A model generated the notes under the pieces. It did no database searches. It was not told the DNA's origin and saw nothing but the letters and a program-made list of their open reading frames with translations. Shown in pieces: positions 2,783 to 37,364 of a DNA stretch of 64,000 nt; position 1 is the first letter of the stretch, and the number at the start of each line of letters is the position of its first letter. This stretch comes from Cellulosimicrobium composti (GTDB lineage Bacteria > Actinomycetota > Actinomycetes > Actinomycetales > Cellulomonadaceae), in the NCBI RefSeq assembly GCF_009711085.1, contig NZ_WMKA01000001.1, positions 151,673-215,672 on the forward strand, given 5' to 3'. The translations under genes were made by a program, and so were the position numbers.

Positions 2783-2840
2783 GGGCGTCGTGCCTTCCGG
2801 TGGGTGCGTAGCAGGACGGGTGACGTGACCGCCGAGGTGG

Positions 2841-2938
2841 GGGCCGGGGGTGTGCGTGCCGGGTCGTGGCGGGACTGGCGGGAGCCCGCGAGGAACGAGC
2901 GGGCGGATGGTAGACCCTGCACGCACACCCCCGGTCCC
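2841..2938. repeat. Hairpin element HP1, copy 1 (urtA-urtB intergenic)
   Basis: A long imperfect inverted repeat pairs 2841-2859 with 2919-2938 (one bulged base) and 2861-2864 with 2914-2917. It encloses a 49-nt core (2865-2913). Inside the core is a second stem, GCCCGC at 2884-2889 pairing with GCGGGC at 2899-2904 across a 9-nt loop GAGGAACGA. The core is nearly identical to the one at 35974-36020, while the outer stem sequence differs entirely but still pairs. It sits 34 nt after the urtA stop and 58 nt before the urtB start. It could act as a terminator or mRNA-stabilising structure here, but the conserved core argues for more than that. Confidence 0.8.
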
Positions 2939-2972
2939 CGCCGGACTCAGCGGGTCGGGAGCGACGAAGTCG

Positions 2973-4238
2973 TCAGGAGAGGCCCTCGGCCCAGTCGTAG
3001 CCCTCGAGGTACGGGTCGGGCTCGATCGGCTCGCCCGAGCTCCACTCGGTGTAGATGAGGCCGTCGGGGCCGATCTTGCCGATGAGGGCGGTCTTGGCGA
3101 TGTGGTGGTTGTCGCCGTTCACGGTGACGGAGCCCTCCGGCGCGTCGAACGTGACGCCGTCCGCGGCCTCCTGGACGTCGGCGACGTCGAACGACTCCGC
3201 CTTCTCGACCATGCCCTTCCACAGGTAGAGCGACGTGTACGCCGCCTCCATCGGGTCGGACGTCACGCGGTCGGCGCCGTACTTGGCCTGGAACGCCTCG
3301 ACGAACGTCGCGTTCTCCGGGCTGTCGATGGTCTGGTAGTAGTTCCAGGCCGTGAACTGGCCCTCGACGTTCTCGACGCCGACGCCGCCCACCTCCTCCT
3401 CCGCGATCGACACCGACACGACGGGCATGGTGTCCGGGCCCAGGCCCGCGTTCTTGTACTCCTTGAAGAACGCGACGTTGGAGTCGCCGTTGAGCGTGTT
3501 GAACACGGCGTCCGCCCCGGCTGACTTCACCTTGTTGACGATCGTGGAGAAGTCGGTGTGGCCGAGCGGCGCGTACTCCTCGCCGAGGACCTCGATGCCG
3601 TTCGCCTCCGCGTAGGCGTTGATGATCTTGTTCGCCGTGCGGGGGAAGACGTAGTCGGAGCCGACGAGGAAGATCGACTCGACCCCCTGCTCCTTCAGGT
3701 AGTCGAGCGCGGGGACGATCTGCTGGTTGGTCGTGGCGCCGGTGTAGAAGATGTTCGGCGACGACTCGAGGCCCTCGTACTGGACCGGGTAGAAGAGCAG
3801 CGAGTCCTGCGCCTCGAAGACGGGGAGCATCGCCTTGCGCGACGCGGACGTCCAGCCGCCGAACACCGCGGCGACGCAGTCGCTCGTGATGAGCTTCTCC
3901 GCCTTCTCGGCGAAGACCGTGGGCTCGGACTGACCGTCCTCCTGGACGATCTCGAGCTGCTTGCCGAGCACGCCGCCGTCGGCGTTGATCTCCTCGGCCG
4001 CGAGGGCGAGGGAGTCGGCGACGGTCTGCTCGGAGATCGCCATGGTGCCGGACAGCGAGTTGAGGAAGCCGATCTTGACGGTGTCGCCGGAGGTGTCGAC
4101 GCAGCTCTCGGCGGCGCTGGTCGCGGCGCCCGCTCCGTCGCCGGTCGCCGTCCTCGCGCCGCACGCGGTGAGCGTGAGCGCGAGGGCGACGAGAGCGGCA
4201 GCCGGGGCGAGACGGGTCGTGGCGCGTGAAGGTGTCAC
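2973..4238 (-). CDS. urtA: Urea ABC transporter substrate-binding lipoprotein UrtA
   Basis: Extracytoplasmic urea receptor, 421 residues from GTG 4238, which follows an AAGGA site at a 6-nt spacing. A lipoprotein signal peptide ends with lipobox LTLTAC, so the mature protein is lipid-anchored. The mature part has the type I periplasmic-binding fold of LivJ/AmiC proteins ([17 protein letters not shown] near the start of the domain). Motifs [30 protein letters not shown] and AFQAKYG are characteristic of UrtA. Longer in-frame extensions upstream lack a signal peptide context and were discarded. It is the first gene of the urt operon, with a candidate shared operator about 105-130 nt upstream. 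Confidence 0.95.
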
Positions 4239-32479: not shown

Positions 32480-32660
32480 TCAGGACCCGGAGTAGGATCA
32501 GGTCCACGATGACGTCGGGTCCTCCGCTCGTACCAGGGGGGTCCCGACTTCTTCTGTGTCGTCGAAGACACGCTCGTCCGCCATCGCGAACAGCTACGTC
32601 GACGTGGCACGTCACTGCACAACGGATCGTCCGGCACGTACCTGCCGGTGGAGGGATGTA
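32480..32660 (+). ncRNA. Structured 5' leader of msiK, candidate msiK RNA motif
   Basis: Between the otsB terminator and the msiK start lie about 230 nt without a gene. They hold several short helices: GTCGGG (32514-32519) with CCCGAC (32543-32548), and GTGTC (32556-32560) with GACAC (32567-32571) closing the loop GTCGAA. A conserved structured RNA, the msiK motif, is known upstream of msiK genes in actinobacteria. The gene identity and position fit, but I cannot match the consensus from memory. Boundaries are approximate. Confidence 0.5.
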
Positions 32661-32666
32661 CCAGTC

Positions 32667-33791
32667 ATGGCTACGGTCACCTACGACCACGCAACCCGGC
32701 TCTACCCCGGGACCGAGCGTCCCGCCGTGGACCAGCTCAACCTGCACATCGAGGACGGCGAGTTCCTCGTCCTCGTCGGCCCCTCGGGCTGTGGCAAGTC
32801 GACGTCGCTCCGCATGCTCGCGGGCCTGGAGGACGTCAACGGCGGTCACATCTACATCGGCGACCGCGACGTCACGGACGTCCAGCCGAAGGACCGCGAC
32901 ATCGCGATGGTGTTCCAGAACTACGCGCTCTACCCGCACATGTCCGTCGCGGACAACATGGGCTTCGCGCTGAAGATCGCCGGCACGCCGAAGGCGGAGA
33001 TCCGCCAGCGCGTCGAGGAGGCCGCGAAGATCCTCGACCTCACCGAGTACCTCGACCGCAAGCCGAAGGCGCTCTCCGGTGGTCAGCGTCAGCGTGTGGC
33101 CATGGGTCGCGCGATCGTGCGCCAGCCGCAGGTGTTCCTCATGGACGAGCCGCTGTCGAACCTCGACGCCAAGCTCCGCGTCCAGACGCGCACGCAGATC
33201 GCGTCGCTCCAGCGCCGCCTCGGCGTCACCACGGTCTACGTCACGCACGACCAGACCGAGGCCCTCACCATGGGTGACCGCATCGCGGTCCTCAAGGACG
33301 GCCTGCTCCAGCAGGTCGGCACGCCGCGCGAGATGTACGACACCCCGGCCAACGTGTTCGTCGCCGGCTTCATCGGCTCGCCGGCCATGAACATCGGCAC
33401 GTTCGCCGTGAACGACGGCGTCGCCGAGGTCGGCCCCGCCCGCATCGCGCTCGAGCGCGACACGGTCGCGAAGATCACCGAGGCCGACAACGGCAAGGTC
33501 ACGATCGGCTTCCGCCCCGAGGCCCTCGACGTCGTGTCGCAGGCCAACGAGGCCGCGTTCCCGGTCGAGGTCAACATCGTGGAGGAGCTCGGCTCCGACG
33601 CGTTCGTCTACGGCACGCTCAAGGGCGACCTGGCCTCCCAGGCCGACGTCCACTCGGGCGCCGGCGACAACCAGGTCATCGTCCGCGTCGACCCGCGCAA
33701 CGTCCCGGCCAAGGGCGAGCGCATCTACGTGACGATCCGCCCGGGTCAGTCGCACGTCTTCGGTGCGGCCTCGGGTCAGCGCATCAGCTGA
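32667..33791 (+). CDS. msiK: Multiple-sugar ABC importer ATPase MsiK (UgpC/MalK family)
   Basis: Cytoplasmic ATPase of the carbohydrate uptake transporter-1 family, 374 residues. Walker [10 protein letters not shown] (about residues 38-46), Q-loop MVFQNYALYPHMSV, signature LSGGQRQRVAMGRAI, Walker B QVFLMDEPLSNLDAKLR and H-loop VYVTHDQTEA are intact. The C-terminal regulatory OB domains run from about 240, ending with RIYVTIRPGQSHVF. It stands alone with no permease or binding-protein genes beside it, as MsiK does in Streptomyces, where one ATPase serves many sugar importers. It could energise uptake of mannan oligosaccharides, but nothing here proves that. GGAGGG lies upstream. Confidence 0.93.
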   Translation: MATVTYDHATRLYPGTERPAVDQLNLHIEDGEFLVLVGPSGCGKSTSLRMLAGLEDVNGGHIYIGDRDVTDVQPKDRDIAMVFQNYALYPHMSVADNMGFALKIAGTPKAEIRQRVEEAAKILDLTEYLDRKPKALSGGQRQRVAMGRAIVRQPQVFLMDEPLSNLDAKLRVQTRTQIASLQRRLGVTTVYVTHDQTEALTMGDRIAVLKDGLLQQVGTPREMYDTPANVFVAGFIGSPAMNIGTFAVNDGVAEVGPARIALERDTVAKITEADNGKVTIGFRPEALDVVSQANEAAFPVEVNIVEELGSDAFVYGTLKGDLASQADVHSGAGDNQVIVRVDPRNVPAKGERIYVTIRPGQSHVFGAASGQRIS

Positions 33792-33904: not shown

Positions 33905-33962
33905 GGACACCAGACTGCTTTTGCACACCAATCACCAGAAGTCGCATGATCGTCAACCAAAA

Positions 33963-33976
33963 CGACAACGCTGTCA
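33963..33976. promoter_or_regulatory. Candidate LacI-type operator before the TIM-barrel/discoidin gene
   Basis: CGACAACGCTGTCA, centred on CG, a near-palindrome. It matches the site at 26326-26339 (consensus TGACA-N-CG-N-TG-N-CA, allowing for orientation). It lies 12-25 nt before the ATG, where binding would block initiation. Confidence 0.45.
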
Positions 33977-33987
33977 ATGGGAGCCCC

Positions 33988-35658
33988 ATGCACATCACCA
34001 GACCTTCGTCGCGCGCCCGGAGCCTCGGCGCGGCACTGACGGGCGGAGCGCTCGTCGCCGGCACCCTCGTCGCGGCCCCCGCCTCGGCGACGAGCCCGGC
34101 CGTCGTGACCAGCCCCTCGCCCGTCACCACCGCCGAGACGTGCGGCGCGGACGACGGGCTCCCCGACTCGCGGATCTCCATCCAGCTCTACACGCACGTC
34201 GGCGAGCTCGGCGGCTCGGGGACACCCTCCGCGGAGACGCTCGACCGCGTGCTCGGCGAGGTCGCGAACGCCGGGTTCAGGAACGTCGAGCCGTACAACC
34301 AGCCCTACTCGATGCCCGTCGAGGAGTACCAGGCGATCCTCGACCGGTACGGCCTGGAGGTGTCGTCGAGCCACGGCAGCACCGACCGTGCGACGTGGCC
34401 CGAGACGGTCGCGTACGCCGTCGCGCTGGGTCAGGACTACGTCGGCTCCGGCGGCATGGCGGGCGGCTACGGCACGTACGAGGAGGCCGTCGCGACGGCC
34501 GCGTACGTGAACGAGCTCGGGCAGTACGCGCACGAGAACGGCGCGAACAAGATCGCGCTGCACAACCACCAGGGTGAGTTCACCACGCGGTACGTCCACC
34601 CCGAGACCGGCGAGACCGTCAGCGCCTGGGAGGTCATCGAGGAGAACACCGACCCGCGCTACGTCACGTTCGAGCTCGACGTCGGCTGGGCGGCGGACGC
34701 CGGCCTCGACGTCCCGGCCTGGATCGAGGAGCACGGCGACCGCATCGAGCTCCTCCACATCAAGGACGCGGTGAACGTCGACGCTCCCGGTGACATGCGG
34801 CAGGTCGCGCTGGGCCGGGGCGAGCTCGACCTCCCGGCGATCATCGCGGCGGCCGAGCCGTACGTGCAGTACTTCACCTACGAGTGGGACTGGGCGCCGT
34901 CGTTCGAGACGTCCGCGGAGTCCTACCGGTACCTGCGCTGCTTCAAGACCGAGGACGGCGGCGGCGACGACGGCGACGACTCGCTGGCCCTGGGCCGACC
35001 CGTCACGGCGTCGAGCGTCGACGAGCCCGGTCACGAGCCCGAGCTCGCCGTGGACGGCAACGCCGGCACGCGGTGGAGCAGCGCGTGGAGCGACCCGGAG
35101 TGGATCGCGGTGGACCTCGGCGCGAGCTACGACCTGAGCCGGGTCGTCATCGACTGGGAGACGGCGTACGGGTCCGGGTACGAGGTCCAGACCTCGCCCG
35201 ACGGCGACACGTGGACCACGGTCCGCACCGTCACCGACGGCGACGGCGGCTTCGACGACCTGGAAGTCTCCGGCACCGCTCGGCACGTGCGGCTCCTGCT
35301 CACGGAGCGCGCGACGCAGTGGGGCTTCTCCCTCTACGAGCTCGAGGTCTACGGCACGCCCACGGGCGGGCTCGACCTCGACGTCCAGGCGCAGGCGCGC
35401 TGCCTGGCCGGGCAGGCGTACGTCGCGGTCCGCGCCACGAACGGCGAGGACACGCCCGTCGACGTGACCCTCACGACGCCGTACGGCACCCACGCCGTCG
35501 CGGACGTCGCCCCGGGCGCGAACGCCTACCAGTCGTTCGCCGTCCGCTCGACCACGGTCGAGAGCGGCACGGTGACCGTCACGGGCACCGCGACGGTCGA
35601 CGGCGAGGACGTCACCGCGACCTTCGACGTCGACCACGACGCCCTCACCTGCGCCTGA
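33988..35658 (+). CDS. Secreted sugar-isomerase-fold protein with discoidin domain
   Basis: 556 residues from ATG 33988 (GGGAG 5 nt upstream). The signal peptide is RSLGAALTGGALVAGTLVAAPASA. A xylose-isomerase-like TIM barrel (about 50-315) follows, with candidate metal ligands in IALHNHQGEF, YVTFELDVGWA and IELLHIKD. Next come an acidic linker (EDGGGDDGDD), a discoidin/F5-8C domain (about 330-465: VDGNAGTRWSSAWSDPEWIAVDLG) and a C-terminal module (about 470-556) ending in Cys. That module matches the end of the GH92-GH76 enzyme. The barrel family includes sugar epimerases and secreted glycan-modifying proteins; the substrate is unknown. Discoidin domains often bind glycans. The gene appears monocistronic. 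Confidence 0.85.
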   Translation: MHITRPSSRARSLGAALTGGALVAGTLVAAPASATSPAVVTSPSPVTTAETCGADDGLPDSRISIQLYTHVGELGGSGTPSAETLDRVLGEVANAGFRNVEPYNQPYSMPVEEYQAILDRYGLEVSSSHGSTDRATWPETVAYAVALGQDYVGSGGMAGGYGTYEEAVATAAYVNELGQYAHENGANKIALHNHQGEFTTRYVHPETGETVSAWEVIEENTDPRYVTFELDVGWAADAGLDVPAWIEEHGDRIELLHIKDAVNVDAPGDMRQVALGRGELDLPAIIAAAEPYVQYFTYEWDWAPSFETSAESYRYLRCFKTEDGGGDDGDDSLALGRPVTASSVDEPGHEPELAVDGNAGTRWSSAWSDPEWIAVDLGASYDLSRVVIDWETAYGSGYEVQTSPDGDTWTTVRTVTDGDGGFDDLEVSGTARHVRLLLTERATQWGFSLYELEVYGTPTGGLDLDVQAQARCLAGQAYVAVRATNGEDTPVDVTLTTPYGTHAVADVAPGANAYQSFAVRSTTVESGTVTVTGTATVDGEDVTATFDVDHDALTCA

Positions 35659-35689: not shown

Positions 35690-35722
35690 GGGGCGGGTCC
35701 GACCCGAGGCCGGACCCGCCCC
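35690..35722 (+). terminator. Hairpin after the TIM-barrel/discoidin gene
   Basis: GGGGCGGGTCCG (35690-35701) pairs perfectly with CGGACCCGCCCC (35711-35722) around a 9-nt loop, 31 nt after the stop codon. Confidence 0.85.
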
Positions 35723-35757
35723 GACGGACGTGGCGAGCCGCCCCGGGAGCCGACACC

Positions 35758-35952
35758 GGAGCGACGAACGAAGCGACTCGGCCGCAGAACCGCCCGCCCC
35801 CACCAGCGCTCTGCCTGACCCCAGGTCGAGGCGCGCCGACCACGGAGCGGACGCCGGAGCGAGGAACGAGGCGACTCGGCCGCAGAACCGCCCGCCCTAC
35901 CAGCGCTCTACCTGACCCCAGGTCGAGCCGCGCCGACCACGGAGCGGACGCC
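35758..35952. repeat. 98-bp tandem repeat, two units
   Basis: Unit A starts at 35758 (98 bp) and unit B at 35856 (97 bp). They are about 90 percent identical by eye, both starting GGAGCGAGGAACGAG (unit A GGAGCGACGAACGAA) and ending GACCACGGAGCGGACGCC. A third start (GGAGCGAGG, 35953) runs straight into the left arm of the hairpin at 35956. Each unit contains ACCTGACCCCAGGT, itself a small palindrome. The intergenic stretch 35659-36104 has no convincing gene; it holds a terminator, this repeat and the hairpin. Confidence 0.85.
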
Positions 35953-35955
35953 GGA

Positions 35956-36038
35956 GCGAGGGGCGGGGCGGGTCGTGGCGGGTCTGGCGGGAGCCGCGAG
36001 GGACGAGCGGCGGATGGTAGACCCGCCCCGCCCCTCGC
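35956..36038. repeat. Hairpin element HP1, copy 2
   Basis: An 18-bp perfect outer stem (35956-35973 with 36021-36038) encloses a 47-nt core that is nearly identical to the core of the element at 2841-2938. The inner stem is GCCGC (35993-35997) with GCGGC (36007-36011) around the 9-nt loop GAGGGACGA. Compared with copy 1, the inner stem has lost one matching base pair, and the outer stem has a wholly different sequence that still pairs. It is directly preceded by the 98-bp tandem repeat. Confidence 0.8.
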
Positions 36039-36104
36039 GCAGGCGTCCGCGACCGCGCCCCGCCGACGCCGACGCCGACGCCCCGACGCCGACGACCATG
36101 GACA

Positions 36105-37364
36105 ATGGGTCCCGTGACGGTGCACAACCTGCAGATCACCGCGTCGGCCCCCGACCCGGCTCTCCTCGACCTGCCCTGGGACATCCCGCTCGAGGAGTGG
36201 CCGGACGAGACGCTCGCCGCTCTCCCCCGCGGTATCTCCCGGCACATCGTGCGGTTCGTCCGGCTCTCCGGGCGTGTCATCGCGATCAAGGAGATCGGCG
36301 AGACGGTCGCGTACCGGGAGTACGAGCTGCTGCGGCAGCTGCGCCGGCTGGAGGTGCCGAGCGTCGTGCCGGTGGGCGTGATCACGGGTCGTCAGGACGC
36401 GAACGGGGAGCGGCTGGAGGCGGTGCTCATCACGGAGCACCTGCAGTTCTCGCTCCCGTACCGCGCGCTGTTCAGCCAGTCGCTGCGCCCGGACACGGCG
36501 ACGCGCCTCATCGACGCGCTCGCGGTGCTCCTGGTGCGTCTGCATCTCGTGGGGTTCTACTGGGGCGACGTGTCGCTGTCGAACACGCTGTTCCGTCGTG
36601 ACGCGGAGACGTTCGCGGCGTACCTCGTGGACGCCGAGACGGGCGACCTGCACCGCGAGCTCTCCCCGGGGCAGCGGTCGTACGACGTGGACCTGGCGCG
36701 GACGAACATCATCGGCGAGCTCATGGACCTGGCGGCGGGCGAGCTGCTCGACGAGGACGTGGACGAGATGGCGATCGGTGATGCTCTCGTCGCGCGGTAC
36801 GAGGAGCTGTGGGAGGCGCTGACGACGTCGGAGTCGTTCGACGCGAACGAGCGGTGGCGTGTCGCGGCGCGCATCGAGCACCTGAACAACCTCGGCTTCG
36901 ACGTGGACGAGCTCGCGATCACGACGGACATCGACGGCACGACGGTGCAGATCCAGCCGAAGGTCGTGGACGCGGGGCACCACTCGCGGCGCCTGCTGCG
37001 CCTGACGGGCCTGGACGTGCAGGAGAACCAGGCGCGTCGTCTGCTCAACGACCTGGACTCGTTCCGCGCGGCGGCGGAGCGGCAGAACGACGACGAGGAG
37101 TTCGTGGCGCACGACTGGTTGAGCGGCGTGTTCGAGCCGACGATCCAGGCGGTGCCGCGCGACCTGCGTCGCAAGCTCGAGCCGGCGCAGCTGTTCCACG
37201 AGATCCTGGACCACCGCTGGTTCATCTCGGAGCGTGCGGGCCGCGACGTCCCGATGCCGGAGGCGACGCAGTCGTACGTGGAGAACGTCCTGCGGCACCG
37301 CCCGGACGAGAAGGCGATCCTGGGTCTCGCGCCGGGCGAGAAGGACCCGGAGTACTACGGCTGA
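36105..37364 (+). CDS. DUF4032 (lipopolysaccharide-kinase-like) protein
   Basis: About 419 residues. The N-terminal half resembles a small-molecule kinase: ISRHIVRFVRLSGRVIAIKEIGETVAYREYELLRQL has the Lys/Glu pair of kinase folds, and LLVRLHLVGFYWGDVSLSNTLFRRDAETFAAYLVDAETG has a GDxxxSN catalytic-loop-like motif and a DAE metal motif. The C-terminal half matches DUF4032 (QIQPKVVDAGHHSRRLLRLTGLDVQENQARRLLNDL). The substrate is unknown. The start is ATG 36105 or GTG 36114; no clear ribosome site. A short GACGCC hexanucleotide repeat lies just upstream (36063-36096). Confidence 0.88.
   Translation: MGPVTVHNLQITASAPDPALLDLPWDIPLEEWPDETLAALPRGISRHIVRFVRLSGRVIAIKEIGETVAYREYELLRQLRRLEVPSVVPVGVITGRQDANGERLEAVLITEHLQFSLPYRALFSQSLRPDTATRLIDALAVLLVRLHLVGFYWGDVSLSNTLFRRDAETFAAYLVDAETGDLHRELSPGQRSYDVDLARTNIIGELMDLAAGELLDEDVDEMAIGDALVARYEELWEALTTSESFDANERWRVAARIEHLNNLGFDVDELAITTDIDGTTVQIQPKVVDAGHHSRRLLRLTGLDVQENQARRLLNDLDSFRAAAERQNDDEEFVAHDWLSGVFEPTIQAVPRDLRRKLEPAQLFHEILDHRWFISERAGRDVPMPEATQSYVENVLRHRPDEKAILGLAPGEKDPEYYG

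Follow-up and report, generated by a model that had tools for sequence, protein, structure and literature searches.

What kind of element keeps its core nearly fixed and changes both of its stems? The question is posed by two hairpins at 2841-2938 and 35956-36038 of the window, the whole 64,000-nt stretch of Cellulosimicrobium composti DNA analysed here. A sequence-only reading had taken them for a two-copy, undescribed element, possibly a small or cis-regulatory RNA or a miniature mobile hairpin. Both hairpins are present as claimed and their true limits are slightly larger. They belong to a hairpin family of roughly 90-150 bases, with many copies in soil actinobacteria, between genes as well as inside protein genes.

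The two hairpins and their relatives

Both copies follow one plan. The outer stem leads into an asymmetric internal loop, with 18 nt on its G-rich 5´ side and 8 nt on its 3´ side; inward of it lie an inner stem and a 9-nt loop. The 30-bp arms of copy 1 contain one mismatch, C2860 x T2918, absent from orthologues L279, L282, L284 and L286, and enclose a core at 2866-2912. The arms of copy 2 pair over 19 bp; beyond them are a GGA/GCA internal loop and, outside it, a further 9-bp stem. The parts, with the basis of assignment in brackets, are:

2836..2865, + strand: copy 1, outer stem 5´ arm, 30 nt (fold and sequence)
2866..2884, + strand: copy 1, conserved G-rich 5´ core GTGGCGGGACTGGCGGGAG, the last G of which pairs in the inner stem (sequence)
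2884..2904, + strand: copy 1, inner hairpin with 6-bp stem and loop GAGGAACGA at 2890-2898 (fold, pair statistics)
2905..2912, + strand: copy 1, conserved 3´ core GGATGGTA (sequence)
2913..2942, + strand: copy 1, outer stem 3´ arm (fold)
35944..35955, + strand: copy 2, 5´ side of the distal stem at 35944-35952, followed by the 3x3 internal-loop GGA at 35953-35955 (sequence)
35956..35974, + strand: copy 2, 5´ arm, 19 nt (fold, sequence)
35975..36019, + strand: copy 2, core with inner hairpin, loop GAGGGACGA at 35998-36006 (sequence, covariance model)
36020..36038, + strand: copy 2, 3´ arm, 19 nt (fold, sequence)
36039..36050, + strand: copy 2, internal-loop GCA and distal 3´ stem at 36042-36050 (sequence)

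Folding energy is lower than that of dinucleotide shuffles by 7.66 s.d. for copy 1 and 5.40 s.d. for copy 2, and none of 200 shuffles folded as well in either case. A covariance model, R1, was built from 33 of the 89 copies with an exact core; those taken had at least 16 of 20 outer pairs and no more than 80% arm identity to one another. Copies whose first record falls in L001-L007 or L027-L037 were omitted, so that neither window copy is inside the model; it does include an orthologue of copy 1 (L116) as well as some relatives of copy 2. The model recovers both window copies, with scores of 100.4 and 86.0 bits. Of the five matches listed, the one ranked next reaches 14.3 bits, and no third copy was found by the model in the 64-kb window.

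Copy 1 occupies the spacer between urtB (1898-2782, - strand) and urtA (2973-4238, - strand); urtA and urtB were named by NCBIfam TIGR03407 and TIGR03409. Copy 2 lies between genes 33946-35658 (+ strand), with only an IolE-type family match far below cut-off, and 36105-37364 (+ strand), for which no family was found. Left of copy 2 (35700-35975) there are three direct repeats spaced by about 97-98 nt, two of them 90% alike and one 68%, and the last one enters the arm of copy 2. Elsewhere in the window, an msiK RNA (RF01747, 56.9 bits) at 32604-32663 immediately precedes a predicted gene (32667-33791) which resembles an ABC transporter ATPase.

The earlier count of two copies was too low. The same genome holds 19 blastn matches to copy 1 (E <= 1.1e-10) or 20 matches to the covariance model (E <= 0.001), and the family is multicopy. 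All 17 genomes of the genus carry the element, in 12-83 copies each (covariance model, E <= 0.001). In the order it is patchy, being present in 28 of 297 sampled genomes including our own, that is 27 of 296 others, and in 15 of 95 genera (stricter filters). A class sample gave 6 of 394 genomes, our own included (E <= 1e-4); three of these belong to other orders. Scanning of genome contigs for the exact pattern yielded at least 116 stretches; the matches listed come from records named Cellulosimicrobium, Luteimicrobium, Isoptericola and Actinomyces, from one MAG named Actinomycetales bacterium and from one Sphaerisporangium.

The record labelled Sphaerisporangium cinnabarinum ATCC 31213 (QAPD01; L044, L053, L081, L087, L120) contains several copies and an HrpA very close to that of the present genome; mislabelling or a mixed assembly may be the reason. 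In a genome outside the order (L391, G538), six copies form three same-strand pairs about 140-215 bp apart. Several contigs start or stop at copies of the element.

Comparison with Rfam agrees with the description of the element as undescribed. Rfam 15 gave no element match above gathering threshold in the window, nothing relevant appeared at relaxed E-value in 6 + 3 loci, and a known Rfam RNA was thus rejected. No description of this element was found in the open-access literature. Carriage by phages or plasmids was rejected too: one pattern on viral contigs and the 98-base copy 1 query, run by blastn against plasmids and phages, gave no match, which speaks against the mobile reading proposed below.

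Free stems around a nearly fixed core

The outer stem (19-30 bp) and the inner stem (5-7 bp) vary in sequence between copies and their pairing is kept. In alignment A1, consisting of 33 sequences preselected for outer pairing, 95.0% of 924 pair cells pair, compared with 64.3% after shuffling; in slid controls only 34-49% do. Both sides have changed in 25 of 29 pairs, and double-change cells number 234 versus 62.8 in shuffles. Because A1 was preselected for outer pairing, counts free of that selection matter. Across the 89 exact-core copies, own arms form 16.9 of 20 pairs and swapped arms 11.7 (wobbles counted), and of the 138 distinct copies with an exact core, 100 reach 18 or more Watson-Crick pairs out of 20. 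Poor pairing in register (at most 13 of 20 pairs) is found in 32 of the 138. A script flagged 25 of these as a subtype in which AAGG, CAGG or GAGG precedes the core and the stem is interrupted close to it; L255 and L256 were added by eye, and the flagged L276 may not belong. Five copies (L057, L071, L072, L092, L112) have the usual closing and arms unpaired in register. The badly paired copies count against the explanation that we favour below, 26 of the 32 being of the interrupted-stem subtype or close to it.

The claim that pairing is preserved under sequence change is strongly supported, both by the A1 statistics and by the orthologue-only alignments described below. Recent duplication of an ordinary terminator, the counter-explanation that accompanied this claim, is rejected by covariation across the family and in place.

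The core consensus, GTGGYGGGNCTGGCGGGAG / GAGGRACGA / GGATGGWAG, is nearly fixed. Among the 19 copies found by blastn in our genome, 15 have no substitution relative to it, three have one and one has two. In pattern-selected copies the loop reads GAGGAACGA in 86, GAGGGACGA in 41, GAGGCACGA in 10 and GAGGTACGA in 1, and the 3´ core GGATGGTA in 125 and GGATGGAA in 13, counts that overstate constancy because the selecting pattern fixes most core letters. Model-found copies from other families largely retain the G-rich 5´ core and GGATGG, with altered edges and, in some, an altered loop; four of the stretches printed for this comparison gave no match to the pattern used. The 3´ edge GGATGGTAG, common in the genus, is kept in L240-L242; L244 has GATGGTAG, and the edge in other families is GGATGG-ACG, -TTG, -TTC, -ATC, -AGC or -CGG. 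Distant relatives (L228-L247) retain much of GGNNGGGYCTGGCGGGAG...GGATGG, several with altered outer closing and a few (L244, L246) with the 9-nt loop replaced.

Of 157 exact-core copies, which include orthologues and are therefore not independent, 123 pair at least 17 of the 19 bp adjoining the core. The helix runs on in 96 of them, whose arms have a median length of 27 bp. In another 16, a 3x3 loop at positions 20-22 (GGA/GGA in 14) interrupts the helix, which then resumes, the distal helix forming 7.4 of 8 pairs with own arms versus 4.2 with swapped arms. The remaining 11 consist of five GGA/GGA copies with a weaker distal helix, four GGA/GCA or GCA/GGA copies, copy 2 included, with distal pairs 8/8, and two different ones.

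Read on the G-rich strand, outer stems of the 100 well-paired copies contain 21 G-T and 6 A-C mispairs, and inner stems of all 138 copies 9 and 1 (kinship ignored in both counts). For outer stems of all 138 copies the excess is small, 66 versus 51, unpaired arms adding noise. Since a G-T mispair on one strand is an A-C mispair on the other, this suggests that the G-rich strand acts single-stranded, as DNA or RNA. Wobbles amount to about 1% in well-paired copies; typical RNA stems are expected to hold more.

Positions in genomes and at orthologous sites

Genes around the copies were predicted with a purpose-made codon-model gene caller, and spacers of at least 130 nt were counted. Among the matches listed, 80 spacers with the element comprise 44 co-directional, 34 convergent and 2 divergent ones; 197 spacers without it at the same loci comprise 106, 11 and 80, respectively. 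The divergent class is thus depleted among these matches (Fisher p = 2.8e-12). Orientation in co-directional spacers is mixed, 29 '--' versus 19 '++' (115 copies in all classes, among the matches listed).

Nineteen copies among the matches listed lie inside predicted ORFs, 9 sense and 10 antisense, using several frames; the insertions are in frame. Pfam identified 11 of the host proteins: two LigD, the Pol III alpha subunit, two biotin-carboxylase proteins, ferrochelatase, a helicase which we take to be HrpA-like, a P-type ATPase, and thioredoxin/NHL, AAA/RNase-H and Fe-S/CCG-domain proteins. In-gene stems exceed 20 bp, have an internal loop in some cases and differ between related hosts (for example L059 versus L080, L056 versus L089). 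In the HrpA linker, the element is present in 4 of 24 genomes with readable anchors (from 30 fetched out of the 60 family genomes that matched), and also in L087 and L151. The same site in L249 (G004) and L042 keeps the right arm, and the left arm and core are missing. Such a state may arise through deletion, or the arms through inverted copying of one flank, which look alike at this site; a right-half remnant at another G004 locus favours deletion.

Given the variable orientation (29 versus 19) and the sense and antisense copies in ORFs (9 versus 10), a dedicated small RNA or cis-regulatory RNA, as once proposed for the element, is not supported. A cis-regulatory RNA or riboswitch would have fixed orientation and position relative to the regulated gene, and these were not found. 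Replication-strand bias was likewise rejected: with origin position scanned for, shuffling did at least as well as the best two-replichore split in 80 of 300 trials for G004 and in 57 of 300 for each of G008 and G012.

For six loci of our genome, orthologous sites in the genus were sought with a joined gene-end query and their flanks were fetched. The element is present in 15 of 17 genomes at L020, in 9 of 16 readable at L026, in 6 of 16 at L019, in 3 of 16 at L016, in 5 of 15 readable at L018 and in 1 of 17 at L015. The L020 alignment (14 of the 15 copies, one with an offset core being dropped) contains 10 distinct sequences, 97.7% paired, with 33 double-change cells versus 7.9 in shuffles, and zero pairs vary on one side only. 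Double-change cells are also in excess for nine distinct copies at L026 (17 versus 6.7) and for eight copies, six distinct, at the urt locus (9 versus 2.7); further pair types at these two loci are not above shuffles (reached by 112/500 and 173/500). Compensated change between orthologues indicates that stems are rewritten in place and not only between independent insertions. Same-site replacement of one copy by another might in principle give the same pattern.

In the urt spacer, readable in 14 of 15 genomes, we found 8 ordinary copies (our own included), 3 copies whose core contains a 55-nt insert, 1 copy that seems reversed, 1 unrelated hairpin (about 17 bp) and 1 stem without core (by eye). 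The reversed copy, in G001, lies within poor poly-G/poly-C sequence and is not relied on; the long runs beside this hairpin (L290) look like sequencing or assembly artefacts. The suggestion that copy 1 might set the urtA/urtB ratio is compatible with these data. The insert of about 55 nt inside the core (L283, L285, L287) has a possible hairpin of its own. Its interpretation as an ancestral larger RNA was not borne out, the exact pattern being found once per genome and in only 3 of 17 genus genomes; the loci with the insert match no relevant Rfam family. At the L224 locus, among the genomes listed, G000 is without the unit, G005 is without the hairpin and has some repeat-like sequence left, and G004 retains a right-hand remnant.

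Sites without the element are not always without a hairpin. Among 58 element-free orthologous sites, the hairpin beats all 60 mononucleotide shuffles in 24; in 37, the 24 included, it is reached by at most 3 of 60, and 21 sites are unremarkable. At L016 and L018, two of the four loci printed, element-bearing genomes carry an ordinary hairpin alongside the element. The element may double as a 3´-end hairpin, but it is probably not simply the terminator.

One subfamily contains near-identical copies dispersed in single genomes, for example ten each in G004 and G012, every one scoring 98.5 bits. The outer flanks of near-identical units in G004, G008 and G012 are mostly unrelated. Dispersed near-identical copies together with orthologous sites devoid of the element support mobility. 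Against it, insertion ends are blurred: in the youngest subfamily the conserved unit reaches about 80 nt leftward, into variable arrays of repeats of about 21 nt with which it merges, and in many of the 39 copies read by eye the arrays are inverted left relative to right. No target-site duplication was seen in alignments inspected by eye. The missing replication-strand bias also counts against mobility, since some ssDNA transposition predicts such bias. The repeats (ACCASGGYTCTACCTCGSC) flank the youngest copies (L193-L212, L224, L225 and others), and a similar array without hairpin occurs at the L018 locus of G007.

A probable mobile palindrome and its alternatives

Among the options named at the outset, the miniature mobile hairpin fits best, given the dispersed near-identical copies, patchy orthologous loci, both orientations and in-frame insertion. 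We suggest that Actinomycetes probably harbour in this element a small mobile palindrome of the REP/RPE-like sort; a regulatory RNA acting from one particular strand, or a plain terminator, fits worse. The element would spread as a folded single strand, presumably the G-rich one, and its core would be the recognition feature for a mobilising enzyme. The arms would then be complementary because pairing alone matters, and polymerase template switching between them could rewrite both sides together. After insertion at a gene 3´ end, the transcribed hairpin may serve as a 3´-end, attenuator or stabiliser structure. Many copies are old (at L020 the element is shared by 15 of 17 genomes with core almost intact), which suggests host-level maintenance rather than pure selfishness.

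The same hairpins might instead be structured RNAs of mRNA 3´ ends, which act as terminators, attenuators or stability elements, bind a protein through the core and are selected locus by locus. Location at gene 3´ ends, compensatory change in place and the excess of G-T over A-C mispairs speak for this, as do the hairpins at 24 (strict) or 37 of the 58 element-free sites, by which hairpins may be interchangeable. We nevertheless consider it unlikely. Variable orientation (29 '--', 19 '++') is odd for an asymmetric RNA core, the element stands beside an ordinary hairpin and not instead of it at L016 and L018, and well-paired copies occur within coding genes, where a terminator would be harmful. 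Less probable still is a DNA site for chromosome handling, with the core bound by gyrase or by a nucleoid or fork protein at gene ends. A comparable role has been proposed for REPs and BIMEs of E. coli. Convergent enrichment, divergent depletion, free orientation and the little altered core of old copies would suit such a site, but intragenic copies, the very uneven copy number across the genus (12-83) and the strand asymmetry of mispairs, which favours a single-strand form, would not.

Finally, the repeat could be largely inert, its arms complementary through template-switch mutation only and their pairing unselected. According to PMC8794818, template switching is a mutational route that can keep hairpin arms complementary, and very few one-sided and many double changes are what it would leave. 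Yet switching should also remove the asymmetric loop or turn the core around. Other families retain most of the internal-loop letters, and among the orthologous copies compared the only opposite one is that in the poor sequence of the G001 urt spacer. We regard this reading as very improbable.

How does the favoured mobile palindrome compare with known systems? What usually defines a REP-like palindrome is the sequence of its stem or loop, together with a tag of the GTAG type, and RAYT transposases are often nearby. The element resembles REPs and BIMEs as a short dispersed palindrome with many copies, at gene 3´ ends and sometimes intragenic; PMC3733652 places REPs mostly in convergent or co-directional spacers, close to gene 3´ ends, and its intragenic hosts include dnaE2, DNA ligase and RNA helicases. 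That text gives REPs as 20-40 bp, most stems as 6-9 bp, and stem or loop sequence as defining the family, whereas here the 19-30 bp arms are free in sequence, the stems covary, arms are common to subfamilies only and the internal loop is the fixed part. GTAG at the 3´ edge of the core is lost in several other families. The Y1/RAYT transposase (PF01797) was found in none of the 28 element-bearing genomes of the order sample; at E <= 1e-8 it occurs in 10 of 297 order genomes, none with the element (two draws of 297 were taken as one set, their handles agreeing). With the tag not kept, the stem not conserved and no PF01797 accompanying the element, REP/RAYT membership was rejected. No mobilising enzyme was found in this search, in which PF01797 alone was sought; this, too, counts against the mobile reading. 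PMC3733652 also describes a CGTC-tagged kind of REP without known transposase, and 'actinobacteri-' does not occur in its main text. REPs were counted broadly in three Actinomycetota genomes (PMC12306157), and the mere presence of palindromes in this phylum is therefore nothing new.

RPEs are likewise palindromes of similar size, intergenic and in frame in unrelated protein genes, with in-frame insertion in Rickettsia described in PMC10969869 (and PMC3733652). As reported there, RPEs encode a conserved peptide; the present element uses both strands and several frames, lives in other bacteria, has another sequence and has covarying stems. A terminator would share the strong GC-rich hairpin at gene ends, and a good part of element-free orthologous sites do hold an ordinary one, but the asymmetric conserved core, the intragenic copies and coexistence with an ordinary hairpin at two loci set the element apart. 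It is short, foldable, dispersed and non-autonomous like a MITE, but has no terminal inverted repeat sequence common to the family, and no target-site duplication was seen by eye; no cognate transposon was identified, only PF01797 having been sought.

More tentatively, the core may be a new functional motif driving a RAYT-independent class of palindromic mobile elements. Should that be so, a G-rich asymmetric internal loop would be held between two helices of free sequence, and in some copies the GGA/GGA loop, at a distance of exactly 19 bp, would act as a ruler. Stems would be rewritten in place, even within protein genes, across genera, and the shape of the folded strand, not the sequence of its stem, would be recognised.

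Taken together, a free stem, a near-fixed internal loop and no RAYT found would point either to an enzyme that reads the folded core or to host selection that keeps a new motif. The orthologue series, compensated in place, and the intragenic copies make template-switch rewriting of palindromes directly testable. Covariation is usually taken as proof of a functional RNA; here it occurs in an element without fixed orientation that is partly intragenic. A covarying, mobile-like element of this kind is thus a warning for RNA discovery pipelines.
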